A stretch of DNA of 58,913 nucleotides from a virus, in the IMG/VR virus record IMGVR_UViG_3300009163_003453, positions 1 through 58,913 of that record. The stretch is one strand, 5' to 3'. A program made the position numbers and the translations under genes. Shown here piece after piece: positions 43,783 through 58,913 of the stretch. Within the stretch, counting starts at the first letter, position 1. Each line of letters opens with the position of its first letter. The notes under the pieces were generated by a model. It made no database searches, was not told the origin of the DNA, and saw only the letters and a list, made by a program, of their open reading frames with translations.

Positions 43783-44326
43783 GATGTAACTTTGAGTATT
43801 TTTGTTTAGTAAATTCTTTGCTTGTCATTAATCCAACTACTATAAGATCACATACAACAGACATACAAGTGGTTGAAGTTGTTGGGGTTAGTCCTAATGG
43901 ACATATCTCTTCTACTTCACCAAATTCAATATAGTCTGCACATCTTAGATCTAAATGAGTATTACTTTTCCCTACAACACCAAAGATGATATTTCCGTAT
44001 TCTAATAAATGAACAAGTTCAATCAGTTCTATAACTTCTCTAGTTTTTCCAGAGTTGCTAAAAACTATAATTATATCATCCGGCATTATCATACCAAGAT
44101 CACCGTGTTGAGCTTCTGCAGGGTGTATAAAAAAAGAGGGTGTTCCTGTAGAGCAGAGAGTAGTTGCAAATGTGTGTGCAATTTGTCCTGCTTTACCCAT
44201 TCCAGATGTTATGATTCTTCCACCTTTTAAATCGGAATTTATTCTTGTTACAATATCTCCAATTCTTTGTGTGGGAATTTTTCTTAAATACTCTATTTCT
44301 TTTTCGATTAAACCATTATAGTTCAT
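43748..44326 (-). CDS. kdsD: Arabinose-5-phosphate isomerase, SIS domain only
   Basis: This 192-residue protein has the SIS fold motifs TSGMGKAGQIAHTFATTL (40-57), AEAQHGDLGMI (70-80), VFSNSGKT (88-95) and LGLTPTTST followed by the HAGYLGEK end. The family converts ribulose-5-phosphate to arabinose-5-phosphate, the KdsA substrate. Bacterial KdsD and GutQ carry two CBS domains after the SIS domain; here they are missing, giving the short single-domain form. The overlap with kdsA suggests substrate channelling or at least co-synthesis. It follows the GDP-mannose dehydratase with a 19-base gap. Confidence 0.9.
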   Translation of the reverse strand: MNYNGLIEKEIEYLRKIPTQRIGDIVTRINSDLKGGRIITSGMGKAGQIAHTFATTLCSTGTPSFFIHPAEAQHGDLGMIMPDDIIIVFSNSGKTREVIELIELVHLLEYGNIIFGVVGKSNTHLDLRCADYIEFGEVEEICPLGLTPTTSTTCMSVVCDLIVVGLMTSKEFTKQKYSKLHHAGYLGEKSKK

Positions 44327-44345
44327 TAATAAATAAATTAAAAGA

Positions 44346-45341
44346 TTAACGATTTGATTTTATTCCTTGTAATACATCCATCCAATGATCACACATTTCA
44401 TGAAGCATTTCAGTGAATGTGTAAGTTGTTTCCCATCCTAATTCTTTCCTAATTTTAGTTGAATCTCCTTTTAAGTAAGGAAGTTCCTCCGGTCGTAAGA
44501 ATTTAGGATTTTGTACAATATAGTCTTTATAATCTAAATTAAGATAGGAAAATACCACATCACACATATCTCTAACACTGTGAGTCTCCATTGTTGAAAC
44601 TACAAAATCGTCTGCTTCTGTGTGATTAATTATTTTGTGCATAGCCTTCACGTAATCTTTGGAATGTCCCCAATCTCTATATGAATCCATATTTCCCATT
44701 TCTAGCTTGTCAGCTAAACCTAGTTTAATCTCACATGCTCCTTTTACAACTTTATTAGTTACAAAGTTCGAACCCCTCCTAGGTGATTCATGATTGAAAA
44801 GTATACCATTACAAGCATGAAGACCGTAAGCTCTTCTATAATGTCTTACAATATTGTATCCAAACACTTTACTACATCCGTATGGAGATACTGGATTCAT
44901 TGGGGTCGTTTCTCTTTGGAATTTATCATCTTCAACAGAAAGTCCAAACATTTCAGAAGAACTTGCTTGATAGAATTTAGAATTAGGAACGATTCTTTTA
45001 TATGCCTCTAGCATATTAATAACCCCTATAGAATTAGACTGTACTGTATATTGTGGAATATCAAAACTAATCCTAACATGGCTTTGCGCACCAATATTAT
45101 AAATCTCATCAGGCTTAATTTCTGTTAACAATTTTTCAATTGATGTTTGATCTGTAAGATCTCCATAGTGAGTAAAAAGATTAGGATTATTTAATACAGA
45201 ATCTAATCTTGCTGATTGATTCTCGGATGTAGAATTTCTTCTAACCATTCCATGAACCTCATATCCGAGGGATAATAGATATTCGGAAAGATAGCTTCCA
45301 TCCTGTCCATTTATACCTGTAATAAAAGCTTTTTTTTCCAT
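44346..45341 (-). CDS. gmd: GDP-mannose 4,6-dehydratase
   Basis: This 331-residue SDR-type enzyme converts GDP-D-mannose to GDP-4-keto-6-deoxymannose, the parent of GDP-fucose, GDP-rhamnose, perosamine and colitose. The nucleotide-binding loop is GINGQDG (9-15); the catalytic Tyr154-x3-Lys158 lies in SPYGCSK. The start of the protein, ITGINGQDGSYL, and FNHESPRRG are Gmd hallmarks. A TATAAATA (T4-late-promoter-like) stretch lies about 10 bases before the start on the minus strand, at 45351-45358. No Fcl/GMER epimerase-reductase is in the window. Gmd is known from other phages and chloroviruses. Confidence 0.95.
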   Translation of the reverse strand: MEKKAFITGINGQDGSYLSEYLLSLGYEVHGMVRRNSTSENQSARLDSVLNNPNLFTHYGDLTDQTSIEKLLTEIKPDEIYNIGAQSHVRISFDIPQYTVQSNSIGVINMLEAYKRIVPNSKFYQASSSEMFGLSVEDDKFQRETTPMNPVSPYGCSKVFGYNIVRHYRRAYGLHACNGILFNHESPRRGSNFVTNKVVKGACEIKLGLADKLEMGNMDSYRDWGHSKDYVKAMHKIINHTEADDFVVSTMETHSVRDMCDVVFSYLNLDYKDYIVQNPKFLRPEELPYLKGDSTKIRKELGWETTYTFTEMLHEMCDHWMDVLQGIKSNR

Positions 45342-45386
45342 TATTTTTATTATTTATAAGATGTTCTGACCCCTCTATTTTTTATA

Positions 45387-45989
45387 TCATTTATTTTTAA
45401 AAAATTTCATCTGAGTTAAATCAGGCCAATCTGTATAGACCCATTTTCTTGGCTCTGTTTCTATTGCTTTTTGTAATTTAGATAATCCGATTTCAGCAGA
45501 CTCCGGCGTCATATAATAGTGGTAACCTATAGTATCAATATCCTGGTCTCTCCAAGGTATATTAGGAATCCTACCATCATAGCTCATTTTTTTAAGAGCT
45601 TCGTAATCTTCCTTGTTATCACATAGGATCATTCCACCTCTTCCGATACTTAAATGTTTCTGGTATTGGAAGCTTAAACACATAAATGTATTAGGAATAT
45701 AAGAATCCCTTCTCCATAAAACAGCAGCGTCTATTATTCTTTTATCACCATAATTTAAAGTATAATAATCTTCCCATTCTTCATCTCTCCATTCTCTTTC
45801 TAGCCCCATTTTTTCTGCTAAAAATGGAACGGACAGATATGTTCTGTTTGGTACGTTTATTTTTTTCTCCCTTGTATATCTTAGACATAACTCTATACCA
45901 TGTGTACAGCTGTCTACCGCTACTCCGTAAGGAGCACCAAAAAAAGAAGAAACGCTATTTTCGAATTCTTGAACTATTTCAAATGACAT
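45387..45989 (-). CDS. Miniature DegT/DnrJ/EryC1-type sugar aminotransferase
   Basis: This 200-residue protein is little more than half the usual 370-residue length. The core SFQYQKHLSIGRGGMIL (106-122) matches the PLP-lysine region of the DegT family, with Lys111 as the Schiff-base lysine. YGVAVDSCTHGIEL (21-34) corresponds to the substrate-binding turn. The usual C-terminal small domain is missing. Its stop and the next gene's start are normal, so it is not an obvious frameshift product. With Gmd nearby, an amino-sugar made from a 4-keto-6-deoxy-hexose is a fair hypothesis. It may also be a non-catalytic or partnered fragment. Confidence 0.7.
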   Translation of the reverse strand: MSFEIVQEFENSVSSFFGAPYGVAVDSCTHGIELCLRYTREKKINVPNRTYLSVPFLAEKMGLEREWRDEEWEDYYTLNYGDKRIIDAAVLWRRDSYIPNTFMCLSFQYQKHLSIGRGGMILCDNKEDYEALKKMSYDGRIPNIPWRDQDIDTIGYHYYMTPESAEIGLSKLQKAIETEPRKWVYTDWPDLTQMKFFKNK

Positions 45990-45990
45990 A

Positions 45991-46641
45991 TTAACTATTT
46001 TTTATTTTCCAATTTTCCCAAACCCATTCATAATTCCAGGTTCTTTCGTGGGTTTTTTCTAACTCATAATTTATAAGAGATCTTCTTCTTTCGTGGTCAT
46101 CTATAAATATATGATACTGAACCTGTATATTTTTAATTTTTTTCAATATCTCAGGATTACTAATAAGATAATCCAAAAGATCGTATTCACCACCCTCTAT
46201 ATTGATTTTAATTAAATCAACCTTCTCTATACTATTTTCTTCAAAAAAATCACCGATGGATTTTATCGTAATAATCTCCTTCTCACAATCAGACTCGATA
46301 TTTACAAAAGTGCTGCTTATATCACCGGTAACGGATATAGTACACTTTTGATCCACTCCAGATAAACCATATTTATAAACTTCTACTTTATCGTTATTTT
46401 CAAATTTATAATTACATATATTGTAATACCTATTAACCGGCTCGAAGACCATCACTTTACAGTTGTACCTTGAATATATGGATTCGGTAAAATTTCCGAT
46501 ATAACCTCCTAGATCCATCACTAATGAATTACTATCCATCTCAGGATAATTAAGTCTTCGATAAACATCTCCACTATCGGAAAGCCATCTCTCTATCTCC
46601 GAATTAAATATTTCCTCAATAGTTTGTTTTTCTTCACTCAT
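45991..46641 (-). CDS. FkbM-family methyltransferase
   Basis: This 216-residue protein has the SAM-binding VMDLGGYIGN (41-50), VFEPVNRYY (65-73) and KINIEGGEYDLL (145-156). The last corresponds to the family's KIDVEGaE motif. FkbM-like enzymes methylate hydroxyl groups on sugars and other small molecules. It lies 1 base from the DegT-type gene and overlaps the GT10-like gene by 4 bases (ATGA arrangement). It is the second methyltransferase of the operon, so the glycan may be methylated at two positions. Confidence 0.85.
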   Translation of the reverse strand: MSEEKQTIEEIFNSEIERWLSDSGDVYRRLNYPEMDSNSLVMDLGGYIGNFTESIYSRYNCKVMVFEPVNRYYNICNYKFENNDKVEVYKYGLSGVDQKCTISVTGDISSTFVNIESDCEKEIITIKSIGDFFEENSIEKVDLIKINIEGGEYDLLDYLISNPEILKKIKNIQVQYHIFIDDHERRRSLINYELEKTHERTWNYEWVWENWKIKNS

Positions 46642-47480
46642 ATTTGTTTTATAATTTTTTTTGATTGATCAATAATAGATTTATTAAATGAAGAATATTC
46701 CATTGATCTGTTATAATTATCCTCTATTGCATCTCTCATAGAATGATAGACATCCGGGGTTAAAAGGTTACATTTATTTATTATGTCCTGAGTAGATTCA
46801 CAATATATTATACCACTCATATTAAAAAAATCGCCTATATTACTAGGTCCATAATAAACTGGAACGGTTTTAGTTTGAAAACAGTCTATTATTTTTTCAG
46901 AAAAAGCATTTTTAATCTTATTTGTGTTTTCTATCGCAATATGAAATTGAGTATCGAAAAGCGGATTCTTACTTTCCTTGAGTATTAGCGATTTTTCGTA
47001 ATCAACACCATCTACTAGGGAATGTGAGCTTAGATAAAACCTAGTGGGTATTTTTATATTATTATTTAATTTATGAACCTCCCATCTTGTTAAATATCCA
47101 TCTAGTTTAGGCGAAAATGGACTAGCATGCTTATTGCCTACTAATGATGATACCCCGAAAATTTTTTCATTGAACTCATACCCGTAAGGTATCCAAGTAG
47201 TAGGAGTAACAGATAACATTGAATTCTTGAACTCATCTAATATATCTTGATGATAAGTTAAAATAAAGCTGTATTTATCGGGACAATCTCTTAGGTATCT
47301 AAACATTTTCTTTTTAAGATCGTCAAATGGCTCTAATATTTTTATAATCCTAATCCATCCTTCTGATATTTTTGTGGTAGGCATTTGATCAATAAATATC
47401 TCTACATTAATGTTATCATCAATATCACACATTTTAGATGCTGAATCTAACCAAGGAGCATAAATATTAATTATTCCCAT
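46638..47480 (-). CDS. GT10-like alpha-1,3-fucosyltransferase
   Basis: This 280-residue protein has the GT10 motif at 179-215: FHIAIENTNKIKNAFSEKII followed by TVPVYYGPSNI, with the family's ENS, TEK and PVVYG positions conserved. Bacterial FucT enzymes use GDP-fucose, which fits the nearby Gmd. No membrane anchor or heptad tail is seen. It is shorter than Helicobacter FucT and in line with other viral members. It overlaps the PhyH-like gene by 14 bases and the FkbM-type gene by 4. Another deoxyhexose donor is also possible. Confidence 0.75.
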   Translation of the reverse strand: MGIINIYAPWLDSASKMCDIDDNINVEIFIDQMPTTKISEGWIRIIKILEPFDDLKKKMFRYLRDCPDKYSFILTYHQDILDEFKNSMLSVTPTTWIPYGYEFNEKIFGVSSLVGNKHASPFSPKLDGYLTRWEVHKLNNNIKIPTRFYLSSHSLVDGVDYEKSLILKESKNPLFDTQFHIAIENTNKIKNAFSEKIIDCFQTKTVPVYYGPSNIGDFFNMSGIIYCESTQDIINKCNLLTPDVYHSMRDAIEDNYNRSMEYSSFNKSIIDQSKKIIKQI

Positions 47481-48378
47481 TCTGAAGATAAGTCTTTATA
47501 TTGTTATCATCGTTACACCATTTTTCAGCATATCTTCCTTCTAATGGGCGAGAAAACATAGGATGATAATGTTTATTACATCCTTTGAAAAAATAGTGAC
47601 TAGCTTGTGTTAATCTCGTCTTATTTAAATCTGTAACACCCTCCACGTTACATCCTCCATGTAACATATTAGAAGCCCATATAAGAGCCTGCCCTTTTTT
47701 AAGCTTAACAATCATTGGCTCAGCTTTTTTAGCTTCGATAAGATCAATTAAGAAATTCTCATACTTCTCGTAATTAACAGCTTCACCGTTTTCAATATCA
47801 TCTGGATGTGGAAGGTTTAAATTGTGATACTCGTATAAGTTCCATTTATGACTCCCTGGAACAATTTTCAGTGACCCGTTAGTCTCGTCGACATCTTCGA
47901 ATGCTACCCAAACACCAACCATCCATAAAGCAGGCACCGTATGAAAGTGTATAATATCACTATGTAAAGGCTGATTACTTCCTTTTATAAAATTGATAGT
48001 TGAAAAAGGAAAAGGCTCCTTTGCATATAAAAAAGATAAAGTATCCATTACTTTCTTATTCATAGTAAGATTAGCTATAGGTTTACTTTTTCTCCAATGT
48101 TCAAATATTCTTTTACTCTCAGTATATGTAAAGTGATCTGCGTGATATTTAGTATTTTCGTCGTTTATTGCTTCGTACATATCAGAAACAATAGGATCTA
48201 TATCTTCATCATTTAATTCTAAATCAATTATTAAATATCCTTTCTCGTGATAACTGACACACATCTCTTTCTGCTCATCAGTTAGAGTTGTATCATTTTT
48301 TAATAATTCATAAAAAAACGGAGATTCTACCCAAGGAATATCCAGCGATTCTTTATCTTTAAAATAATCAATCTTCAT
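47467..48378 (-). CDS. Phytanoyl-CoA dioxygenase (PhyH)-like Fe(II)/2-oxoglutarate enzyme
   Basis: This 303-residue protein has the iron-binding triad laid out as His139-x-Asp141 (PLHSDIIHF) and His240 (MLHGG), with Arg255 (KTRLTQASHYFF) as the likely 2-oxoglutarate contact. NGSLKIVPGSHK (167-178) is the typical loop of this group. PhyH-type enzymes hydroxylate small molecules. In phage and bacterial glycan clusters they are thought to oxidise a sugar or lipid carbon. It overlaps both neighbours by 11-14 bases. The substrate is unknown. Confidence 0.85.
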   Translation of the reverse strand: MKIDYFKDKESLDIPWVESPFFYELLKNDTTLTDEQKEMCVSYHEKGYLIIDLELNDEDIDPIVSDMYEAINDENTKYHADHFTYTESKRIFEHWRKSKPIANLTMNKKVMDTLSFLYAKEPFPFSTINFIKGSNQPLHSDIIHFHTVPALWMVGVWVAFEDVDETNGSLKIVPGSHKWNLYEYHNLNLPHPDDIENGEAVNYEKYENFLIDLIEAKKAEPMIVKLKKGQALIWASNMLHGGCNVEGVTDLNKTRLTQASHYFFKGCNKHYHPMFSRPLEGRYAEKWCNDDNNIKTYLQNGNN

Positions 48379-48889
48379 AGTTCATTAATTTATTTGCACT
48401 TTCTATTATTCTTTCTTTTTCTCTTTTTTTAATAGGACGGGCTGGACTTCCAGCGTATATTGTCCAAGGCTCAGTGTCTTTAGTTACTAATGAGTTAGCT
48501 CCTACTATACATCCTTCTCCTAAAGTAACTCCTGGTAAAACTGTACAGTTAACACCAAGAGTAGCATACCTTTCAAAAATTACTGGCTTATTAATAACCG
48601 TTCTGTGTTCAATAGGAACAACAGGAGATATTAGTCCTTGTGTGAAATCATCAGTAGCACAAACTATTCTACTTCCCGATCCAATATTAGTAAAATCTCC
48701 CATAACTAAAAGAGCTGGTGCACCTCCTATAACAGAAACGCTTGGTGCAATATGAATATAGCTTCCCATTTTAAGTTGTGTAGAAATGTATGTCCATTGG
48801 TCAATCGCTATATGATCTCCCATTTCTATCAATTCTGGTCTACATAAAACCGCTAATTCACTTATTCTTACATCTTCCCCTTTTTTCAT
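48368..48889 (-). CDS. Hexapeptide-repeat (left-handed beta-helix) acyltransferase
   Basis: This 173-residue protein has the repeating [LIV]-G-x4 pattern in two blocks: LKMGSYIHIAPSVSVIGG and YATLGVNCTVLPGVTLGEGC. A final IVGANSLVTKDTEPWTIYAG (127-146) is the usual end of O-acetyltransferases. The catalytic His of the family is not clear, because the loop has changed. Many such enzymes N- or O-acylate nucleotide sugars or glycans. It overlaps the PhyH gene by 11 bases and is 1 base from the ketosynthase. Acetyl or a longer acyl group is possible. Confidence 0.8.
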   Translation of the reverse strand: MKKGEDVRISELAVLCRPELIEMGDHIAIDQWTYISTQLKMGSYIHIAPSVSVIGGAPALLVMGDFTNIGSGSRIVCATDDFTQGLISPVVPIEHRTVINKPVIFERYATLGVNCTVLPGVTLGEGCIVGANSLVTKDTEPWTIYAGSPARPIKKREKERIIESANKLMNYED

Positions 48890-48890
48890 C

Positions 48891-49835
48891 CTATTGATAA
48901 TTTACAATTAAAGAACCCCATGTCCACCCAGATCCTATAGCAGTTAATAATATCTTATCGCCTTTTTCAATTTCCCCATTATTTATTGCTTCATCTAAAG
49001 CAATAGGTATAGACGAACCGGCAATATTTGCATACTTATCCATTACTGTTTTAACCTTATTAAAAGGTATATTGTTTTTTTCTGCAATTATCTTAAGTAT
49101 ATTAATACTTGGCTGGTGTGGAACTACCATTTTTATATCATCAATAGTTAGATTAGTTCCCTTTAGTACACTGTTTATAGAATCTGGCAATACTGATATA
49201 GCTTGATCCCAAACTTCTTTACCTCTCATTATAAAAGGAGAATCCAAAGGCATAACAAATCCTGTCATACCTGTTCCAGATCCATTCGAGTTTATTTCAC
49301 TGTAAATCCATCCGTTATCTGATTCTCCTATAATAACTGCACCTGCGCCATCTCCAAAAAATACGCTATGTTGATCTTCAAAATTAGTATGCTTAGAATA
49401 AGATTCTGTTGCAATTATTAATATATTTTTAAAAGCTTTAGTGCTAATGAGAGAACTTCCTAAAGTTATCCCGTAGACAAATCCAGAACAAACGGCATTT
49501 ATATCAAATGCAGGAACGTTTTTCTTTATTCCTAATTTGTAATGTATAGTACATGCTGTAGAAGGTGATATTTTTTCAGGACTAGACGTAGCAACAATAA
49601 TCATATCTAAATCCTCTTTATCAATTCCTGATTTTTCCAATACAGATAATGCAGCTTGATATCCCATTTCAGAAACAGTTTCTTCACTATTAGATATTCT
49701 TCTTTCTCTTATACCTAATTTATTAAAGATCCACTCATCCGAGGTATTTACTCTGCTTGCTATTTCACTATTTGTTAATACCTTACTTGGTAAATATGAT
49801 GAAGTACCTTTTATTGTTACGTTATTATATTTCAT
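48891..49835 (-). CDS. FabH-like 3-oxoacyl-ACP synthase III
   Basis: This 314-residue protein has the full thiolase-fold Cys-His-Asn triad: Cys116 (NAVCSGF), His240 (VPHQPSI) and Asn270 (YANIAGSS). The family usually starts fatty-acid synthesis from acetyl-CoA and malonyl-ACP, and relatives transfer acyl groups to sugars. Beside an SDR reductase and a hexapeptide acyltransferase it could make a short 3-hydroxyacyl group for the glycan. No acyl carrier protein is in the window. It is 3 bases from the GT11 gene and 1 base from the acyltransferase. It is not needed for housekeeping in a phage, so a special substrate is likely. Confidence 0.9.
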   Translation of the reverse strand: MKYNNVTIKGTSSYLPSKVLTNSEIASRVNTSDEWIFNKLGIRERRISNSEETVSEMGYQAALSVLEKSGIDKEDLDMIIVATSSPEKISPSTACTIHYKLGIKKNVPAFDINAVCSGFVYGITLGSSLISTKAFKNILIIATESYSKHTNFEDQHSVFFGDGAGAVIIGESDNGWIYSEINSNGSGTGMTGFVMPLDSPFIMRGKEVWDQAISVLPDSINSVLKGTNLTIDDIKMVVPHQPSINILKIIAEKNNIPFNKVKTVMDKYANIAGSSIPIALDEAINNGEIEKGDKILLTAIGSGWTWGSLIVNYQ

Positions 49836-49838
49836 ATC

Positions 49839-50633
49839 TTATAATTTTATCCACGTATTAGGTACTATATCAACATCCGAATAACCAGGGTCAATTCTAC
49901 CAAACCATTTCATAGGTGAAATCACCTTCTTATTTTCGTTTTTGTTTAGCCAAGCTCCCCACCATGAAAAGCTAGAGCTTGATATTATATTATGTTTACA
50001 CATCGACATCAAAAAAAGCTCTATGTAATCCTTGTCCTCAATAAAAATAAATTTATCTCCTAAAAAATTCTGTTTAGCGTACTCTATATCGTCACTGAAT
50101 ATTATGTATTTTTCAGCATTAATTATATTCATTGCTGAATTGTACCAATCCATATTTTTTGTATGGTGTTTGCTATTTTGATCCAGAGAATAATCACCTC
50201 TTCTAACATGAATAGCACATGTTTCACCTTCTAGAATATTTCTATATTTTTCAATCTGTTGTAAGACAAAATCAGATGGTTCGAATAAATTTAAAATGTG
50301 ATTTCTGTCAGTAAAGTATTTCTCAGTTTGAAAGTATCCATGATAAATTGCTCCATCCCTGTAAGGAATAGGCGAATAATTAAATGGGCATAATATTTTT
50401 CTGTCGCCATTACCTATATCGTTCCATTTAAAATTCTTAAATATTTTTAAATAGTCCTGCGTAGATACATCAGAATTAGGATAAACCCTAGTTCTATCGT
50501 CCTGTACTTTAGCTAAATGCGATTTAACATTAGGAAAATATGCAATGTTATTGTGTGATTTTGCTAAATTTTCAACAGCAGCAATCACAAACATCATATT
50601 TCCAAGCCCTCCTAGTATATTTCCTCCTATCAT
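49839..50633 (-). CDS. GT11-like alpha-1,2-fucosyltransferase
   Basis: This 264-residue protein has GGLGNMMF (8-15), the family's N-terminal GGLGNQ-like loop, then IHVRRGDYSL (141-150) as the nucleotide-sugar motif. SSSFSWWGAWL (219-229) is the family's third motif. GT11 enzymes add fucose from GDP-fucose to galactose in bacterial and viral glycans. Together with the GT10-like gene it suggests fucose or a related 6-deoxyhexose as branch sugar. No membrane anchor is present. It overlaps the cupin by 4 bases. Confidence 0.85.
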   Translation of the reverse strand: MIGGNILGGLGNMMFVIAAVENLAKSHNNIAYFPNVKSHLAKVQDDRTRVYPNSDVSTQDYLKIFKNFKWNDIGNGDRKILCPFNYSPIPYRDGAIYHGYFQTEKYFTDRNHILNLFEPSDFVLQQIEKYRNILEGETCAIHVRRGDYSLDQNSKHHTKNMDWYNSAMNIINAEKYIIFSDDIEYAKQNFLGDKFIFIEDKDYIELFLMSMCKHNIISSSSFSWWGAWLNKNENKKVISPMKWFGRIDPGYSDVDIVPNTWIKL

Positions 50634-51043
50634 TGTAAAAATACTTTATCTAATTTTTGTCCTTCGTAAGGTCCAGTTTTATATTCATAAACTATAGTGT
50701 CGTCCTCTAAAATTTCGTATGTATGTCCGCCATAAAGGGTAAAGCTTGCATCGCCTGGATATAATACCGGCTCTGCAATTAACTTATCATCTATATCGTA
50801 GAATTTACATTTAACACTTCCTTTTATTACCACCCAAGATTCCTGAGCTATCTGAGCTTCATATGTTCTTTGTTTAGTGATATGCTTATGGGGAGGAAAT
50901 GTTTTATCTTTCTCCATTTTTAAAGTAGCGCATTGAATAAAATTATGCTCAGGAACAACCTCAGTTCTTTTTTCTATTTCGGATAATCTATTAATTATGT
51001 GTAATAGTTTTCCTTCTTCTACGTTTGAATATATTTTTTCCAT
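50630..51043 (-). CDS. Cupin-fold sugar-modifying or carrier protein
   Basis: This 137-residue protein has a single cupin barrel: HKH (52-54), a PGD turn (96-98) and GGH (105-107), which together give the metal-binding cluster. Small cupins of this type (for example FdtA- or WxcM-like) act as sugar isomerases or as acyl-handling partners in O-antigen clusters. It lies 1 base from the SDR and overlaps GT11 by 4 bases. The role is inferred from neighbours. It could also be a regulatory or structural cupin. Confidence 0.7.
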   Translation of the reverse strand: MEKIYSNVEEGKLLHIINRLSEIEKRTEVVPEHNFIQCATLKMEKDKTFPPHKHITKQRTYEAQIAQESWVVIKGSVKCKFYDIDDKLIAEPVLYPGDASFTLYGGHTYEILEDDTIVYEYKTGPYEGQKLDKVFLQ

Positions 51044-51044
51044 A

Positions 51045-51758
51045 TTATTTTTTGATTTGAAATGGTCTTATAATTATTTCACTTATGTTCATTCCGTCTT
51101 CCACCTCTATTGTACTCATTATCTGTGATGCAACCCATTCTGCTGTCATACCATTTTCAAAGCTAGGTTTAAATTTAGTAAGAATATCAGAATTTTTAGT
51201 TTGATCTATGAAAGGGGTATTAACAGATCCAGGGCTAATTGTAGTCACTCTTATCTTTTTAGAAAGTTCAGCTCTTAGGCTTTCACTAATAGCAAGTACC
51301 GCATGCTTAGTAGCACAATATACTCCAGATTCAGGAAATACATGATGTGAAGCTACTGATCCTAAATTTATTACCTGTCCATTAGATTCTATTAAATATG
51401 GTAGGAAATAATAAAGCACGTTTAATACCCCTTTAACGTTAACATCTATCATTTTGTGCCAATCATCTAACTCAGAATCTATTAGATTATCGAATATTCC
51501 TATTCCTGCATTATTTAATAAAACATCAACACCACCTATTTTTTTAACAACATCCATAGATAGGTTTTTTACATCATCTGAATTAGTTACGTCCGCTTTT
51601 AAATAAAAAGTACCAGGATTATCATCAGCTAATTTTTTAAGAACTTTTTCGTTTCTTCCAGTAATAAAAACAGTGTGACCATTTTTTACAGCATGTTTAA
51701 AAGTGGCTTCACCTATACCGCTAGTGGCTCCTGTAATTAATATTCTTTTTTTCTTCAT
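51045..51758 (-). CDS. Short-chain dehydrogenase/reductase (SDR)
   Basis: This 237-residue classical SDR has the NADP/NAD loop GATSGIG (10-16), structural NNAG (82-85), catalytic Ser134 and Tyr147-x3-Lys151 (YCATK). Such enzymes reduce ketones on sugars or on 3-oxoacyl groups. Its neighbour is the FabH-like synthase, so a 3-oxoacyl to 3-hydroxyacyl step is one reading. Another is a 4-keto-sugar reductase that would replace the missing Fcl. It shares a single base with the GT25 gene. Confidence 0.85.
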   Translation of the reverse strand: MKKKRILITGATSGIGEATFKHAVKNGHTVFITGRNEKVLKKLADDNPGTFYLKADVTNSDDVKNLSMDVVKKIGGVDVLLNNAGIGIFDNLIDSELDDWHKMIDVNVKGVLNVLYYFLPYLIESNGQVINLGSVASHHVFPESGVYCATKHAVLAISESLRAELSKKIRVTTISPGSVNTPFIDQTKNSDILTKFKPSFENGMTAEWVASQIMSTIEVEDGMNISEIIIRPFQIKK

Positions 51759-52426
51759 TATAATAGATGTTTGGTGTTATCCTTGAATTTACCTTCCATC
51801 CAACTGTAATCTGCAAATGCGTCATGTATATCGCTATGGTTACTAGCTTGTACTGCAGTTATAGGGAAAGTACAGTAGCTCTTAAAGTTTTCCTGCCCAT
51901 AATCAGAAAGCCATACATCTATTATAGGTATATTTCTCCGTTCAAAGTTTTCAATAAAATAATCATAGAAGCTCTCGTGATATGCTACTGCATGAGTTGC
52001 AAATCCTTTTTTTAAGGCTAAAAGATTTTCATCCTCTTTATTTAAAGGAACATGTGTGTTTGCGCCAAGATAAAAAAGACTCCAATCTCTATTTTTTAAC
52101 TGATCAACAGATCTGTCAATTGAATCTATATTAATAAAATCAACATCGTCCTCTAACACCAATACAGATTTTAGGCCCTCTTCCTTTGCTCTTTTGATAA
52201 TATTTATATGGGATAATAAACACCCATATAAAGGTATTTTTATTTTTTCAGTGTCCTTAGTATATGGTATGTCATCAGAAGGATTAGGAACTATACCAGG
52301 AAATCTTTCAACTAAATCCATTACTGAATTCTGTTCGAATATATTATTACATCTATCTAATCTATCTTTACGTTTATCAAGATTTATCAAGAATACTTTA
52401 TCGAAATATTCAAATGCTTTTCTCAT
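51758..52426 (-). CDS. GT25-like LPS glycosyltransferase
   Basis: This 222-residue protein begins in the GT25 manner with FDKVFLINLDKRKDRLD (8-24) and has the metal-binding LVLEDDVDF (89-97). GT25 enzymes, for example LgtB-like ones, add galactose or glucose to LPS or protein glycans. No membrane anchor is seen. It overlaps the next gene by 4 bases. The acceptor and the sugar are not known. Confidence 0.85.
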   Translation of the reverse strand: MRKAFEYFDKVFLINLDKRKDRLDRCNNIFEQNSVMDLVERFPGIVPNPSDDIPYTKDTEKIKIPLYGCLLSHINIIKRAKEEGLKSVLVLEDDVDFINIDSIDRSVDQLKNRDWSLFYLGANTHVPLNKEDENLLALKKGFATHAVAYHESFYDYFIENFERRNIPIIDVWLSDYGQENFKSYCTFPITAVQASNHSDIHDAFADYSWMEGKFKDNTKHLL

Positions 52427-53475
52427 TTTATGTTATTTTTAAAATTGTTTGAAATGTGTGTTATGAAATTCGTTTTATCATCAGAAGACATATTTTTAAA
52501 TCCAGCATATGTGAGATTTTGAATGTGTCTATCAGGATTATCAGATCCATTAGTTCTTGGGTGATCCATATGAAAAACATCAACCAACGGGTTGTCACAT
52601 CCCTGTATGCCAACTGTTATTTCTAATTTATGGTAGAAGAAAGCATCTTCGCAAGAATAACTATGAAAAAATTCAGCATCAAATCCACCAACTCTATAGA
52701 AGCTATTATGACTAATAAATATAGATCCTCCGGGAGCTCCGGGAGGACAATACTGGGATTCGTAGCTTCCTGGTATTACATCTTCTATCCTAGTTCTATT
52801 TCTTAATATTCTATCAGTTAAATCATTATTCATTGCAATAACCCTTCTTCCCCCAAAAGATTGTAATGCACATCCCTCAGGAATACGTGCAAGATTCTGA
52901 AAAATATTATGAAAAAATTGACGGTCAGTTAGAAGATCTATATCGTGAAAAAGATAATACTTTGCTCTATTTGAAAATAAAGCTCCCACATTCATTGACA
53001 GACATTTATTAAATAATCCCCTATCCATTTTTTTAATCCATATGTGATTAGCTAATCCTTTGCATAATTCCTTATGATTAGCTGTTTCGCTATGTTCTAC
53101 GAATGTTATAGAATATGTTTTTTCTTTAAAAAATTCCATAGATGCTAACAAATGATTAACTAAAGGTTTGTTAAAATTCTCCCTTCCCTTTACTGGTATT
53201 ATGATAGAAACATCCACATCATCATTATTGATTAGATTAAATTCACAAGATTCTTTAAGAGATAAATAATCTATTTTATTTTTTTCATATAACTCTATTA
53301 TCTGATGTTTATTCATCATAACTTCCTCATTTTTTATTTCATTATTGATCTTTACCCCGTGAGTGTTAGTTGATGTTTGGGGTGTGACATTTTGCTGTAT
53401 TACTGGTGGAGCAACTCTGTTAATTATTCTTCTCCTTACTCTACTTTCTGATATATTTCTTATTGGCTTATCCAT
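52423..53475 (-). CDS. Glycosyltransferase with GT2/GT7C-type fold
   Basis: The first 55 residues are a basic, low-complexity leader (ISESRVRRRIINRVAPPV). The start at 53475 is 3 bases from the next gene, so the leader may be real. Two methionines at residues 53-54 are alternatives. The catalytic part has DVSIIIPVKGRENFNKPL (88-105), DID at 178-180 (LFHDIDLL) and the acceptor-site GGFDAEFFHSYSCEDAFFYH. The last is typical of the C-terminal domain of galactosyltransferase-like enzymes. It overlaps the GT25 gene by 4 bases. The transferred sugar is unknown. Confidence 0.8.
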   Translation of the reverse strand: MDKPIRNISESRVRRRIINRVAPPVIQQNVTPQTSTNTHGVKINNEIKNEEVMMNKHQIIELYEKNKIDYLSLKESCEFNLINNDDVDVSIIIPVKGRENFNKPLVNHLLASMEFFKEKTYSITFVEHSETANHKELCKGLANHIWIKKMDRGLFNKCLSMNVGALFSNRAKYYLFHDIDLLTDRQFFHNIFQNLARIPEGCALQSFGGRRVIAMNNDLTDRILRNRTRIEDVIPGSYESQYCPPGAPGGSIFISHNSFYRVGGFDAEFFHSYSCEDAFFYHKLEITVGIQGCDNPLVDVFHMDHPRTNGSDNPDRHIQNLTYAGFKNMSSDDKTNFITHISNNFKNNIK

Positions 53476-53478
53476 GGA

Positions 53479-54288
53479 TTAAATATTTAATAAAGTGGGT
53501 CCCGATTTTTTACCAACAAACAATTCCTTTATTGTTTTTGAAAGCTCTAATTGATTCATTCTAGTAAATTTATAGAAAAGAGATTCATTAGTATTTAAAT
53601 TTCTTACATCCTTAGACATATGACTTAAATGTGCAGCTTCGTAAGGAATTCTAAACATACTCTCGTCATCTCTTCCAAGCAATGACTTAATCATTTCTGT
53701 TGCTGCTTTATCTTCCCATCCATATCTAAAGAAGTTTTCGTTGTATCCTCCCATAGTATTCCAGAACCATTCCTTATTATAAACTAGTATAGCTCCGTAC
53801 CCGCATCCTCTAGACATAGATCTAAATTGAAATACAGGATCTCTAGGCCCGCCACCTCTTTTTTTAAAAATATTAAAGTCTTTGGTTCTTAACCACTCCG
53901 AAGTGGGATCTTCATTATTACACCAATAATATGTTTCTGCTCCTGCAGCAAATTCACCCTTAAATTCGCTAATGATAGTGAAATAATTATTATCAAAAAC
54001 AAAATCCGAATCCATCAGGACTATAATCTCTCCTTGGGCTTCTCTCGCTCCTACATTTCTACACCAGCTAAGATTAAATCCTCTATCCTGCGGATCTTTA
54101 ATTCCTATATGTTTATAAGAAATAATTGGATTACTTTGTTTGTAAAAATTATTATCTAAAGATTGCTCCACTACAATAACTTCATAATCAACAAAAGTCT
54201 GATTTTTAATACAAGTAAGGCACTCGTTAAAATTTCTATTTCTTAAATGGTCATTTCCACCTGTCGGAAGTATTATTGATAATTTCAT
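53479..54288 (-). CDS. GT2-family glycosyltransferase
   Basis: This 269-residue protein starts KLSIILPTGG (2-11) and has LMDSDFVFD with Asp93-x-Asp95 as the metal site. The second part shows GGYNENFFRYGWEDKAATEM, the GWED-type acceptor motif found in GT2 and GT27-related enzymes. It is cytoplasmic, with no anchor. It is co-transcribed with its neighbours at 3- and 0-base gaps. The specificity is unknown, but it and the previous gene are probably related duplicates, since both carry the GGx-ED acceptor pattern. Confidence 0.8.
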   Translation of the reverse strand: MKLSIILPTGGNDHLRNRNFNECLTCIKNQTFVDYEVIVVEQSLDNNFYKQSNPIISYKHIGIKDPQDRGFNLSWCRNVGAREAQGEIIVLMDSDFVFDNNYFTIISEFKGEFAAGAETYYWCNNEDPTSEWLRTKDFNIFKKRGGGPRDPVFQFRSMSRGCGYGAILVYNKEWFWNTMGGYNENFFRYGWEDKAATEMIKSLLGRDDESMFRIPYEAAHLSHMSKDVRNLNTNESLFYKFTRMNQLELSKTIKELFVGKKSGPTLLNI

Positions 54289-55023
54289 TTAATCTATTCT
54301 AATTTTATTAAATAATTCTTTACAAATTCCAATATTTAAAGATAATGGTCTTGGTAAATGACAATCTATATATTCATCTACATTGTAGTCAGTTTTTGGC
54401 CATATTGCTTTATCCAATCTTCCTGTAGCATATTTCTCTTCTATCCATCCTCTTTCTAAATGCTTAATAGTAATGTGTTTATTTTTAACAGATTGATTAT
54501 AAAAGAACTTCTGATCTGTACCAAATCTTATATTCATTTTCATTAATCTTCTTAAAAAATCTTGGTGAGAATTATTGTCAATTTCTAATAAATCGGAAAA
54601 GCTTTGCGTGTCTCCTGCAAGATAACACATAGGGTATTGTGGATTAGTTACATACCATCGGTATTTAATAATATCAGAGCTGTAAGAAACTATGCCTTTA
54701 TCTCCAATGGAAGCCACACCATTTTTATAATATTCTCCAGAAATTGGAAGCATATCAATATCTGATATTATAAAAGGAGCATCTAATAGCTTAGCTGCCC
54801 AAAATCTTATACATTGTGCTTGTTGAGCTATACTCCATTCGGGGATTGATTCAAGATATATTACCCTCCCGTGGTCATGTACGCTCTCGTGCGGCTTTTG
54901 TTTATCTATATAAAGAAGAATAGGCTCTATTCCTATTCTTTTCCAAGCCCTTGCTACATATGGCCAAAAATCTAGATATTCAGGATTTGAATCTGAGCTG
55001 ACTACGGCATATTTTAATTCCAT
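54289..55023 (-). CDS. GT-A-type glycosyltransferase
   Basis: This 244-residue protein has a GT-A start (KYAVVSSDSN) and ISDIDMLPI with Asp88-x-Asp90. It has further conserved-looking sites in CIRFWAAKLLD and GTDQKFFYN. Enzymes of this layout transfer sugars from nucleotide donors in many viral and bacterial clusters. It ends 0 bases before the next gene. There is no anchor. I do not recognise the exact family number. Confidence 0.65.
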   Translation of the reverse strand: MELKYAVVSSDSNPEYLDFWPYVARAWKRIGIEPILLYIDKQKPHESVHDHGRVIYLESIPEWSIAQQAQCIRFWAAKLLDAPFIISDIDMLPISGEYYKNGVASIGDKGIVSYSSDIIKYRWYVTNPQYPMCYLAGDTQSFSDLLEIDNNSHQDFLRRLMKMNIRFGTDQKFFYNQSVKNKHITIKHLERGWIEEKYATGRLDKAIWPKTDYNVDEYIDCHLPRPLSLNIGICKELFNKIRID

Positions 55024-55025
55024 GC

Positions 55026-55646
55026 TTATCTTATCCTGAAATTACGATTTTGATTCGTATTTCTATGAACATTCCTTGATTCTTGATAATGCTCTATTAC
55101 AGGGGATATTCCTGGGTACATTGTTTTCATATGATCAAATATGAAAGTGTATTCGGGAGGTAAATTATAATAATCAATTTCGCTCATTTCTCTATGAGCC
55201 CTTTGCATATTTTTTTGCTCCCATGTTTCAGGCTTCATTCTTTCTGCGGGGGTAGCTTCATTCAGTTCGATCCATCGATCAACAAGTCTTTTAACTTTGT
55301 CGTTATTCTTTAGAAATATAGTTCCTGATAAGGCTTCGTCTTTTCTCCATCTGAAGTCTTGTGTCCTGTATGCTATATCACAGGTGAGATCTGGTATAAG
55401 ACTCGGATATTGTTTAAAGACTGCGTCAACATCTACACATAATAGATCTTGATTTCTATCTGTTAAACACTTTTTAATAAAATATGCTTTGTGATGTGTA
55501 TTCTTTTCCCAAGAGCCAAGATCTGCTATTCCTTCTATGTGATGAGCTATTGCAAAGTGTTGTAAAGACTTTTTAAGATTTGCTGCGAGTGCTTCGTATG
55601 GAGTGTTTTCCGTGTAGTAAGCTATAACTAAAAATTGGGGGCTCAT
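55026..55646 (-). CDS. Nucleotide-diphospho-sugar transferase-like protein (first gene of the glycan operon)
   Basis: This 206-residue protein has FLVIAYYTENTPYEALA (5-21), then DLLCVDVDAVF (67-77) with Asp72-x-Asp74 as the probable metal site, and ALSGTIFLKN near residue 105. This pattern is like the nucleotide-diphospho-sugar transferase fold. It is the operon's first gene, divergent from 55803. A TATATAAT-like motif is only 6 bases before its start codon, so the message may have almost no leader. The donor sugar is unknown. Confidence 0.65.
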   Translation of the reverse strand: MSPQFLVIAYYTENTPYEALAANLKKSLQHFAIAHHIEGIADLGSWEKNTHHKAYFIKKCLTDRNQDLLCVDVDAVFKQYPSLIPDLTCDIAYRTQDFRWRKDEALSGTIFLKNNDKVKRLVDRWIELNEATPAERMKPETWEQKNMQRAHREMSEIDYYNLPPEYTFIFDHMKTMYPGISPVIEHYQESRNVHRNTNQNRNFRIR

Positions 55647-55781: not shown

Positions 55782-55802
55782 TAGAGATAAAAACATAAAT
55801 TG

Positions 55803-56516
55803 ATGAAAAACTTAAAGCCTTACTGGTTTTTAGAATCTCCAATAGACGCCGAGTATAAGTATTATATTCTTATGGCATTTTTAGTAAAGCTTAAGAAAAG
55901 TTTTCGAACTAAACAGTTTGTGAAAAATTTTAAAGAGCTATTAACTATTAAAAGAGACTTAGAAAGTTTTGATAAAAACACTGAGTTTACATCTAAGACA
56001 CTTTCTAAAATAACGGAAGAGGAGAAGGATCTTATTTACACTCTGCTTGATAAGAATCTTGATAGTATAGAGGAGATAGGAATTATAGTTAAGGATTCTA
56101 TTAAAACAATAGAGAATTTTATAGAAGAAAACAACTTATTTTACGAGAAGTATAACTCATTAGTAAATGTAGAAAGCTATTGTGCAAAATACAATCTTTG
56201 GGACCAGGGATTTCTTGTAATAAGAAAGAACGATGAGGAATATATGAAAGTGTTCACCTGGTTCTTTTCAATAGTAAAGGTCGGTAAGAAAGAAAATATT
56301 GCTCTTTTAATGACTGAATTATTAGATCCCTTGTGTGAGACTACTAATGAAATATCTGTCATTAGAAAATTTCTCAAAGCTAATATTAAAGATTTCTCTA
56401 ATCAATACGACTGTGTTCTAGTTGCGGATGTTTCTGATGATATAGATATAGAAACCGGTACAGATATAAGTAAGGAAAGATCTATAGATCTAATAATGAA
56501 TAAATTTAAGAATTAG
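55803..56516 (+). CDS. Conserved-looking protein of unknown function
   Basis: The frame also opens at a TTG just before (55800), but ATG 55803 gives 237 residues (MKNLKPYWFLESPIDAEYKY). The protein is mostly helical, with a charged stretch (EEEKDLIYTLLDKNLDSIEE) near residues 70-90. The only hydrophobic segment (YYILMAFLVKL) is too short to be a membrane helix. The C-terminal ends with acidic residues and lysines. It converges with the CTS-bearing gene on the other strand, sharing 11 bases at the stops. No enzymatic motif is seen. Confidence 0.6.
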   Translation: MKNLKPYWFLESPIDAEYKYYILMAFLVKLKKSFRTKQFVKNFKELLTIKRDLESFDKNTEFTSKTLSKITEEEKDLIYTLLDKNLDSIEEIGIIVKDSIKTIENFIEENNLFYEKYNSLVNVESYCAKYNLWDQGFLVIRKNDEEYMKVFTWFFSIVKVGKKENIALLMTELLDPLCETTNEISVIRKFLKANIKDFSNQYDCVLVADVSDDIDIETGTDISKERSIDLIMNKFKN

Positions 56517-57066
56517 TTCCCCTAGCTTTAACCAAAGCTTCTAGCTCTTCTTTTTCTTCCTCTGTAAATTCAAATTTATCATAAGGAAAATTATCTACCA
56601 TAAATAAAGCAGACTTGTCTTTTCCTAGATCGTCATCAAATACAACTTCAACTTTAGTTCCTTTCTTATTTATGTAGAAATCTGCTCCACTCCCATCTTT
56701 AAACATTTTGTTTCTAATAAACAAAAGACCTCCGCCAGGCATTATCATTTCTGGCTCATATTCACCAGCATCGATTATCCGTTCTATTTCAGGAATTAAT
56801 TTAGATATAAAAGAGAATGGCTTTATAATAAGATCATCTATTCTTGAAATCTCTGCATTTGCAACTAAAAATTCTGTTATCTCTTCTGCTAATTTTGGCT
56901 TTTCTAAAAAGATTGTTTTTAAATCATCAACGAATGTTTTACTGTTATATCCCTTTTTAGGATCATTCGATGTGTATTTAAAAGGAATTGTATAGAACTG
57001 CCCGTTATTTCCTGCAGCTGAACTTTCATTAAGACCAAATTCATTAAATGTGTATATTCTTCTCAT
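56506..57066 (-). CDS. Probable capsid-internal protein with N-terminal capsid-targeting peptide
   Basis: The 186-residue protein starts MRRIYTFNEFGLNESS. T4 internal proteins have a similar short leader that directs them to the prohead core and is cut by prohead protease gp21 after (I/L)-x-E. Here LNE (12-14) fits that cut site. The rest is a helix-rich alpha/beta protein with an acidic end (FTEEEKEELEALVKARG). It overlaps the 137-residue gene by 4 bases at the start and shares 11 bases with the convergent 237-residue gene. Packaging in the head is inferred from the leader. Confidence 0.55.
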   Translation of the reverse strand: MRRIYTFNEFGLNESSAAGNNGQFYTIPFKYTSNDPKKGYNSKTFVDDLKTIFLEKPKLAEEITEFLVANAEISRIDDLIIKPFSFISKLIPEIERIIDAGEYEPEMIMPGGGLLFIRNKMFKDGSGADFYINKKGTKVEVVFDDDLGKDKSALFMVDNFPYDKFEFTEEEKEELEALVKARGTNS

Positions 57067-57476
57067 AATAATAATCTAGCTGATGTTATTTTGCTTCTTT
57101 CTCCGAAGCTTAGTGAATTTATATTCATTAGATCTTTTCCCACTTTGGTTATAAAATCTTGAGGTATGTTTTCTAATTTAGGACTTCCCTCTGGTGCTTC
57201 TGATAAAGGCCTACATTCCATGTATCCCTCTGTCCCCTTAGCCTGTAAATAACACCCGCTTTTAGAAGCTGATATTAAATCTCCCTTATCACATTTAATT
57301 TTTGACCACATAGGACCGAAATAGGGAATCCCTGATATAGTTCCTTTTGATTCGTAACCCGTTATAACCTCTAGATAAAGTGGTTCTTTTACTTCATAAC
57401 AAGATCCGTCAGCATCCAATCCGTATACTGAAGGAAAATCCTTAGCGAAATTATCTATTTTTAGTATCCTACTCAT
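57063..57476 (-). CDS. Small protein of unknown function
   Basis: The 137-residue protein is beta-rich at the start (SRILKIDNFAKDF, then DGSCYEVKEPLYLEVITGY) with Gly/Tyr turns. The end contains a helix (LENIPQDFITKVGKDLMN). It shares a 4-base overlap with the next gene, so they are a translational pair. A GATATATATT lies 5 bases before its start, close to the divergent plus-strand motif at 57511-57520. No family is recognised. Confidence 0.55.
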   Translation of the reverse strand: MSRILKIDNFAKDFPSVYGLDADGSCYEVKEPLYLEVITGYESKGTISGIPYFGPMWSKIKCDKGDLISASKSGCYLQAKGTEGYMECRPLSEAPEGSPKLENIPQDFITKVGKDLMNINSLSFGERSKITSARLLL

Positions 57477-57510
57477 TTCTTAATATATATCAGATTCATT
57501 GAGATAAAAT

Positions 57511-57520
57511 GATATATAGA
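57511..57520 (+). promoter_or_regulatory. GATATATAGA motif before the 238-aa CTS-like gene
   Basis: GATATATAGA ends 17 bases before ATG 57538. It differs from the GATATATAAT core only at the last two positions and has the same spacing as the motifs at 406-415 and 12708-12717. On the other strand a GATATATATT (57482-57491) lies close to the minus-strand start at 57476, making this a divergent site. Confidence 0.35.
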
Positions 57521-57537
57521 ATAAAAGTAGAAAGAAA

Positions 57538-58254
57538 ATGGTAATACGTAAATATTCCCAATTTATTACAGAGTCTAACAAGACTACATCAATTAGTAGA
57601 TCTAAAGAAATGTATCTTTTAGAAAACGAATATCTTAGAATGAAATCTGAGGGATTAAGTGAAAATGAGATCAACGAAAATATATTCTCATCTTTACTTG
57701 GATCTTTAGGTGGAGGTTTTACCGATACGTTTAAGGATTATGTAATTGACTGGGCAGCTCAAAAATTAGGTATAGAGCCTTTAGACGAAACAGGACAACC
57801 TACATTCTTCTATCAAGTTATACGAAACGTTATCGAGCAAGTTCATTTTACAGAGCTTGGAAGTTATTTCGGTAAGGGATCTTGTAAAAACTGGGCAAGA
57901 GCAATCGTGGAGGGTCTTTCTGAAACATTACAAGAAAGAGGTATAGAATATTTATTACCTAAATTAGGTCTTAAAATAGATATGCAAACTGGTATGGGTG
58001 CAACAATTGCAGCTGGATTACGTGAAGCTTTAACTAACGCAATCAATAATACCGGATTCATGAATAACATTGAGCAAATGATCGGAGATAAAATATGTGG
58101 ATTTAACTTAGGCGACGTTCTTTCTGGTTCTAATGTTACTGCTTCAGATAAGCAAAAATTAGCAACTGATATAGAAAATGCAGAAACTAAAGATCCTAAT
58201 ATATTTGCAAAAGCAATGAAATCCGGATTAGCTGGAATTTTACCGTCATTTTAA
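57538..58254 (+). CDS. Probable capsid-associated protein with N-terminal capsid-targeting peptide
   Basis: This 238-residue protein begins MVIRKYSQFITESNK. The leader has the same aromatic-x2-Phe layout as the minus-strand gene at 57066, and ITE (10-12) matches the (I/L)-x-E site for prohead protease. After the leader come two helical parts (about 22-50 and 130-170) flanking a Gly-rich turn (GSLGGGFTDTF). Residues 178-185 include MIGDKICGF. No enzyme motif is seen. A role as prohead core or injected internal protein is inferred from the leader. It is followed by the 83-residue gene after 12 bases. Confidence 0.55.
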   Translation: MVIRKYSQFITESNKTTSISRSKEMYLLENEYLRMKSEGLSENEINENIFSSLLGSLGGGFTDTFKDYVIDWAAQKLGIEPLDETGQPTFFYQVIRNVIEQVHFTELGSYFGKGSCKNWARAIVEGLSETLQERGIEYLLPKLGLKIDMQTGMGATIAAGLREALTNAINNTGFMNNIEQMIGDKICGFNLGDVLSGSNVTASDKQKLATDIENAETKDPNIFAKAMKSGLAGILPSF

Positions 58255-58266
58255 AGAAGAATAACT

Positions 58267-58518
58267 ATGAATCAGAAGAACGTAAAAAAAAGAGAGATCC
58301 TAAGCTACAAAGACTTTATGAAAGTAGCTAGCGATCCTTGGAACCCTGAAAATCTCAGTAAAGAAGATAGAACAGGGCTTCATAAAATTACTCCAGAACC
58401 AGCTTATGACTATGTTGGTTATAAAGATGCAGTTTACAACGGATTTTCTAAAATAGATTATCCTGGATACGGAGCGACAGAAAGCGGAAGTGCCGCTTCA
58501 ATAGGTGTAACAGAATAA
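58267..58518 (+). CDS. Small protein with CTS-like N-terminus
   Basis: This 83-residue protein starts MNQKNVKKREILSYKDFMKV. The ILSYKDF block is like the ILSFEEF block of the next gene, but no clear (I/L)-x-E cut site follows. The rest is Tyr/Gly/Asp-rich (PGYGATESGSAASIGV). It may be a small virion or core component co-transcribed with its neighbours (14 bases to the next gene). No family is recognised. Confidence 0.5.
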   Translation: MNQKNVKKREILSYKDFMKVASDPWNPENLSKEDRTGLHKITPEPAYDYVGYKDAVYNGFSKIDYPGYGATESGSAASIGVTE

Positions 58519-58532
58519 AAAAAATAAAAAAA

Positions 58533-58913
58533 ATGAACAAATCTATATTATCTTTCGAGGAGTTTAGCTCTAGAAAAAATCAAGAATTGCCAGAAAATGA
58601 CTTTTGGAAAGACCATGAGGTAGAAGAGGAAGAGGAAGAGGAAAACGATGAGGACGAAGAAGAATCTGACGAGGATGAAACTGAAGAATCTGACGTAGAA
58701 GATACTGAAGAAGACGAGGATACTGAGGAAGAAGACGAATCTGACGAAGACGAATCTGACGAAGACGAGGAAGAAGAAGATACTGAAGAGGAAGACGAGG
58801 AAGAAGAAGATACTGAAGAGGAAGACGAATCTGACGAAGACGAGGAAGAAGAAGATACTGAAGAGGAAGACGAATCTGACGAAGACGAGGAAGAAGAAGA
58901 TACTGAAGAGGAA
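58533..58913 (+). CDS. Highly acidic repeat protein, candidate prohead core protein (3' part missing)
   Basis: The first 127 codons are visible and the gene runs off the right edge. The start MNKSILSFEEFSSRKNQ is CTS-like, and LPE (18-20) gives an (I/L)-x-E site. From about residue 30 the sequence is almost only Glu, Asp, Ser and Thr, in nearly perfect repeats (DESDEDEEEEDTEEE). T4 prohead core protein gp67 also has a strongly acidic C-terminal part, so a core/scaffold role is a fair inference; the length cannot be judged. Other options are an acidic linker or a DNA-mimic region. Confidence 0.6.
   Translation, partial: MNKSILSFEEFSSRKNQELPENDFWKDHEVEEEEEEENDEDEEESDEDETEESDVEDTEEDEDTEEEDESDEDESDEDEEEEDTEEEDEEEEDTEEEDESDEDEEEEDTEEEDESDEDEEEEDTEEE
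58749..58913 (+). repeat. 45-bp exact tandem repeat in the acidic gene
   Basis: Three identical 45-bp units lie at 58749-58793, 58824-58868 and 58869-58913. A truncated 30-bp copy is at 58794-58823. The window ends exactly at the end of the third unit, so the true copy number is unknown. Nucleotide identity shows recent expansion by slippage or recombination. Confidence 0.95.

Follow-up and report, generated by a model that had tools for sequence, protein, structure and literature searches.

Candidate T4-type capsid-targeting leaders in the terminal gene cassette of a large myovirus record, and re-use of the tag in related phages

The linear virus record IMGVR_UViG_3300009163_003453 (58.9 kb) comes from a large myovirus, and the stretch of DNA that we have analyzed, referred to as the window, is the whole of its 58,913 nucleotides. 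The window closes with a cassette of genes, two of which, at 56506-57066 (minus strand, 186 amino acids (aa)) and 57538-58254 (plus strand, 238 aa), encode candidate head or internal proteins with short N-terminal leaders. We read these leaders as T4-type capsid-targeting sequences, with a probability of roughly 0.82. Their lengths, 12 residues for the 57538 protein and 14 for the 56506 protein, lie inside the ∼10-20-residue range of the T4 type, for which mutagenesis has shown that targeting depends on residues 4 and 7 (Tyr, Phe) and processing on residues 8 and 10 (Ile, Glu) (PMC9026906). In the mechanism that we propose, the aromatic-x2-Phe half of the leader would bind the scaffold core during head assembly and so bring the protein into the prohead, cleavage after (I/L/V)-x-E by a gp21-type protease would next release the leader, and the mature protein would stay in the head with the DNA and may enter the next host. 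We infer the steps of core binding, cleavage, packaging and injection; what can be read directly from sequence is the motif and its conservation, a protease with its catalytic residues, the adjacency of head genes in relatives and the re-use of the tag.

Positions 57538-57573 code for the leader of the 57538 protein, and the junction reads MVIRKYSQFITE/SNK, where the slash, here and below, marks the cut. The register is that of the T4 IPII/IPIII leader, MKTYQEFIAE/A, which was found in the same scan as a positive control. The pattern Y-[ST]-x-F-[ILV]-x-E-[SN] is common to the 15 homologous loci, and the linker behind it varies in length; the aromatic residue, the Phe and the Glu junction are kept while adjacent positions vary. 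There is, in addition, a second conserved site, I-N-E/N at residues 45-48, which is present in both the window protein and its version at the distant locus L173 and is invariant, as INEN, in an alignment of 13 sequences. No match was obtained in a protein similarity search of 57538 against named phages.

The leader of the 56506 protein (residues 1-14, MRRIYTFNEFGLNE, encoded on the minus strand at 57025-57066) contains F-x2-F and L-x-E, with a predicted cut before SSAAGN. Relative to the T4 register the junction MRRIYTFNEFGLNE/S has one additional residue ahead of the cut site, and the exact T4 register is found in homologs from several relatives (FNQFVNE/S, FDQFINE/S). Sixteen loci preserve both F-x2-F and E-S, among them L173, where the counterpart (34% identity) reads MNRISNFSKFILE/SSSAG. 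When 12 sequences are aligned F7, F10, S15, S16 and A17 are invariant and E14 is nearly so, lying one column off in L173. An AlphaFold2 model has low confidence for residues 1-23 and predicted local distance difference test (pLDDT) values of 75-90 for most of the body; a Foldseek comparison of this model with viral and PDB libraries gave no fold match, nor did a sequence search of the PDB give any match.

All four open reading frames that a sequence-only reading of this DNA had singled out (56506-57066, 57538-58254, 58267-58518 and 58533-58913) are present, and the targeting residues, aromatic-x2-Phe, occur in each of the four and in the orthologs of each. Within the first 18 residues the motif is found in 4 of 5 cassette genes vs 4 of 44 other genes of the window (Fisher p = 0.0015, for a test designed post hoc, once the motif was known). 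A conserved processing site, (I/L)-x-E at or shortly past the Phe with Val also accepted, is confined to 57538 and 56506. The sequence-only reading had placed such a site in three proteins; this stands for 57538 and 56506, each with a conserved Glu junction, and fails for the LPE of 58533. No family was matched by the cassette proteins of the window in searches of Pfam and PHROGs.

The 58533-58913 gene (plus strand), cut by the end of the record, provides the 5' part of a very acidic repeat protein with F-E-E-F near its N-terminus (MNKSILSFEEFSSRKNQELPE, followed by N). Its orthologs contain 59-78% Asp plus Glu and keep aromatic-x2-Phe, and the Glu of LPE at the residue before the cut (P1) is Lys in 4 of 8 of them; cleavage at LPE was rejected, as the site is not conserved. 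The 83-aa protein at 58267-58518 (plus strand), REILSYKDFMKVAS, has the targeting half only (Y-K-D-F-M-K-V) and is predicted to be uncut, and P1 is Val in 10 of 10 orthologs and in L173, which bears out its earlier description as having an uncut-looking leader. Because the P1 Glu is not conserved in the one protein and is Val throughout in the other, the likeliest reading is that each carries the targeting half alone, and they are probably core-associated and uncut at that site. In T4, Asp at position 10 stops cutting yet permits entry, so that targeting occurs without processing (PMC9026906). The acidity of 58533 is shared with T4 gp67, an acidic prohead core protein that is cut at several L/I-x-E sites and whose gene, next to those of the portal and protease, differs in position; a phmmer search found no relative of T4 gp67, gp68 or gp22. 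Full-length 58533 orthologs (L004, L007, L010, L011) also have a conserved C-terminal end, VIRFD[NK]FF, and a Phe-rich motif is thus found at both ends of the Asp/Glu repeat region.

Relatives of the window supply the context of head genes. In near relatives the cassette lies ∼10-14 kb from a gp23-type capsid gene (PF07068, E to 2e-38) and a gp21-type protease gene (PF03420, E about 1e-12) whose product aligns with invariant counterparts of T4 gp21 H85, S140 and D168; in G006, for example, the cassette is at 43-46 kb, the capsid gene occupies 54.5-56.3 kb, and next to it the protease gene extends to 58.4 kb. A match to PF03420 at E ≤ 0.01 is found in 21 of 29 records scanned, 16 of them exceeding the curated cut-off. 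With leaders of T4 design and protease and capsid genes near the cassette in relatives, the earlier suggestion of prohead core or injected internal proteins is largely borne out for 57538 and 56506. As a separate observation, two neighboring genes that each match the T4 portal gp20, a tandem portal duplication, are found at G006:C1:82171-85437, G009:C1:13355-16621 and G010:C1:41323-44574.

The protease of the relatives is extended by a domain, some 450-500 residues long, with 14-residue tandem repeats, such as YSEYLAENLDKNIS, that are rich in L-x-E sites (genes L049:1137-3224, L034:13083-15143 and LR756500 226725-228623). We infer that this domain is a scaffold because it is fused to the protease, is set between protease and capsid gene and contains many (I/L/V)-x-E sites, and the fusion protein as a whole may be a self-shredding scaffold. 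The pattern aromatic-x2-aromatic-(I/L/V)-x-E occurs in 12-15 copies in the fused domain of the window's near relatives, vs ∼0.1 in shuffles, and in 2-6 copies in other clades; none is found in the fused domain of the Lak phages or in T4 gp22. A profile built from 71 repeat units finds 57538, with 0 of 2000 shuffles scoring as well, and gives no match to 56506, 58267 or 58533, and two unrelated genes of the window outscore 57538. The idea that the leader mimics the scaffold repeat is therefore a conjecture, since the profile test was passed by 57538 alone and unrelated genes scored higher.

The sequence-only reading had proposed looking for this leader in other parts of the genome, and in related phages the outcome is strongly positive. 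Strict leaders, counted in the first 26 residues of proteins, number 29 in G015 (vs a shuffle mean of 1.2), 27 in G012 (1.0), 22 in LR756500 (3.0), 15 in G016 (0.6), 12 in G003 (0.5), 11 in G025 (0.6), 6 in G004 (0.4) and 5 in G006 (0.7), and the partial crAss001 genome has 0 vs 0.1. At the DNA level the leader pattern exceeds a reversed control in most of the 29 records. When the upstream half, M..aromatic-x2-F-(I/L/V)-x, is taken without selecting for a cut site and the next residue is scored, Glu is found at P1 in 102 of 149 cases (background 7.7%), and the residue following that Glu (P1') is Ser or Ala in 46 of the 102 (background about 12%). The bodies to which leaders are attached are diverse, 47 leader proteins falling into 36 unrelated families. 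The expanded re-use of the tag across this phage group is the larger of our results; from sequence it would represent a new and considerably enlarged form of the internal-protein system of T4, and our literature searches found no description of such a tag in these phages. A second N-terminal motif, (I/L/V)-(N/D)-E/G-(F/I)-(F/L/I)-S-S, was noted in 16 proteins vs 1-2 expected (genomes G003, G004, G006, G009, G010, G015, G025 and LR756500); it is possibly a second maturation site giving a hydrophobic new N-terminus, and the one instance in the window is probably due to chance.

Pfam matches among the leader-bearing proteins include leucine-rich repeats, AAA/MoxR-type ATPases, DUF2201 metallopeptidase domains, adenylate kinase, polynucleotide-kinase phosphatase, GNAT acetyltransferases, a zeta-toxin-like kinase and ATP-grasp domains, and one leader-bearing protein has a sub-threshold match to internal head proteins of phiKZ. 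In G012 (C1:193196-200277; L226, L227) ∼14 leader genes with the leader MKxxKLFExFxxE are nearly consecutive, one matching Tad3, an inhibitor of type I Thoeris (Pfam, E 8e-19), and another Acb1, an anti-CBASS protein (Pfam, E 1.7e-6, barely above cut-off, with HCT and HMT motifs present). The array is a candidate set of packaged counter-defense proteins. Some of the cargo is thus predicted to act against host defense, as T4 IPI does, the best evidence being these Tad3- and Acb1-like genes, which belong to a relative and not to the window. In related large phages the tag, placed on many unrelated proteins, would define a loadable set of internal cargo, and because up to dozens of proteins that are not related to one another bear it, likely inhibitors of bacterial immunity among them, it may list the proteins that these phages inject with their DNA.

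A broader proposal, which we advance tentatively and rate slightly short of an even chance, is that in this group of large phages one short, interchangeable head-loading tag marks unrelated proteins, up to dozens of them, and that many of these serve counter-defense or host takeover and are delivered with the DNA. The tag would imitate the 14-residue repeat unit of the scaffold (YSEYLAEN...), so that cargo passes as scaffold and is freed by the protease that shreds the scaffold.

The window proteins may instead be ordinary prohead core or structural components that are retained or degraded and not injected, with a leader that serves assembly only. This possibility, which is compatible with a capsid-targeting leader and to which we give appreciable weight, if clearly below one half, is consistent with a window cassette that is single-copy and conserved in relatives with head genes close by, and with the resemblance of the acidic 58533 protein to gp67. 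It accounts less well for leaders in relatives on Tad3, Acb1-like, GNAT and zeta-toxin-like proteins, all of them plausible candidates for action early in infection. For the window proteins themselves we consider an effector role no more likely than a head or core function; the label "effectors" used in the sequence-only reading is too narrow for single-copy, conserved genes near a head module and is better backed by those genes of the relatives.

It is improbable, in our estimation, that the leader directs proteins elsewhere, to a membrane, a replication compartment or a host partner, with the nearby Glu incidental. Leader genes are scattered through the genome, and metabolic enzymes and AAA ATPases are among their products, as might be expected in that case, and in the predicted structure of 57538, which is of low confidence, the leader is modeled as a short, low-confidence helix. 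However, T4's own internal-protein genes also sit apart from its head genes, and the pronounced bias toward Glu at P1 and toward Ser or Ala at P1', the fit to the mapped T4 register and the proximity of the relatives' cassette to the head module and gp21-type protease all argue for capsid targeting. Chance resemblance in low-complexity, AT-rich proteomes, to which a short, degenerate motif and the strict count of the window alone might point, is very hard to reconcile with the far fewer matches that shuffles and internal segments give in the larger contigs, the conservation of the leader across orthologs and the lack of leaders in crAss001.

A number of observations weigh against assigning the leaders to capsid targeting. 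The distant L173 ortholog of 57538 keeps F-E-E-F and has lost the Glu of the first cleavage site. The window alone has 1 strict leader vs 0.2 expected, no clear enrichment, so that the case for enrichment rests on relatives, and the short relatives G009 (1 vs 0.4) and G010 (1 vs 0.2) are weak as well. Near-copy leaders recur inside single genomes and are not independent observations, and we accordingly attach no p-value to the Glu preference. Some leader proteins, such as adenylate kinase and AAA ATPases, are enzymes of no obvious use in a head. Protease and capsid genes are both absent from the window, where the contig ends first; the head module is placed outside it because the record stops inside the acidic 58533-58913 gene. 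Finally, the mature capsid protein of the culturable relative PAU retains 520 of 585 residues by N-terminal sequencing, ∼65 being lost (PMC5646251). This trimming, like the PAU leaders described below, counts in favor of the assignment; the nearest Glu, L-M-E64, would however leave 521, one off the reported value.

The remainder of the cassette and window can be described briefly. A conserved 238-aa neighbor at 55800-56516 (plus strand; N-terminus PYWFLESPID) is out of leader register and was excluded from the leader-bearing count. The 137-aa protein at 57063-57476 (minus strand) overlaps the start of the 56506 gene, and starts with MSRILKIDNF, which is similar to the targeting half (Ile-x2-Phe) and has no cleavage site, a likeness that we regard as weak evidence. 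The affinity of the record is indicated by the 6051-9566 protein, which matches huge or jumbo phages, mostly of Bacteroidota, the named matches being LR756500 (462 kb), PAU, Tenacibaculum pT24, Chryseobacterium MA9V and the Prevotella Lak phages; a DNA similarity search with the gene at 27261-32360 gave no match to named phages. A region of ∼14 kb at 41650-55646 holds sugar, glycosyltransferase and related genes, including a DAHP-synthase family member (possibly a Kdo-8-phosphate synthase), a SIS domain, a GDP-mannose dehydratase, a DegT aminotransferase and a 3-oxoacyl-ACP synthase III, and a homing-endonuclease-like gene at 22615-23820 adjoins baseplate genes.

Were the tag to act as proposed, injected proteins could be listed straight from sequence, and the early-injected proteins of large uncultured phages, nearly unknown so far, would become readable from genomes, yielding candidate early anti-defense proteins of unknown fold. 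What T4 does with a few internal proteins would be widened into the principle of a general cargo system, and the head contents of huge phages could then be put to a direct test in relatives that can be cultured, PAU being one.

Comparison with known systems places T4 closest. Its IPI, IPII and IPIII (and Alt), cut by gp21, likewise have a short N-terminal leader in which aromatic-x2-Phe is followed by (I/L)-x-E, one leader is found on unrelated bodies, the protease and capsid genes are of the same type, and in IPI the cut site is displaced downstream of the Phe (MKTFKEFTSTTTPVSTITE/A). T4, however, tags a handful of genes, and the phages considered here up to dozens each; their protease is fused to a scaffold-like domain of 14-aa repeats, Val is also allowed at P3 (two residues before P1), Ser is favored at P1', and the cargo in relatives includes predicted anti-defense proteins of other kinds. 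In PAU ∼14 genes starting MKTxxxLYE/LFE (here the slash separates alternatives) occur within 32 kb around the protease and capsid genes, about a dozen of them at NC_019521 100248-113735 (L181). Two are annotated "internal capsid protein", an annotation with no stated basis, and a PDB sequence search with the PAU capsid and internal proteins gave no match. As in the relatives of the window, many small proteins near protease and capsid genes have in common a short leader ending in L-x-E; the PAU leader differs in having no aromatic-x2-Phe, and its protease is not fused to repeats, so that from sequence it appears to be an analogous but distinct tag. In the giant phages phiKZ and SPN3US a diverged relative of gp21, gp175 and gp245 respectively, likewise cuts many head proteins after Glu (PMC9026906, PMC5694885), although the motif in phiKZ is S/A-x-E and the propeptides are mostly much longer, with no short shared leader. 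The DarA and Hdf proteins of phage P1, described as head-associated proteins that counter host defense (PMC12810830), would be likened to the cargo proposed here by location and function.

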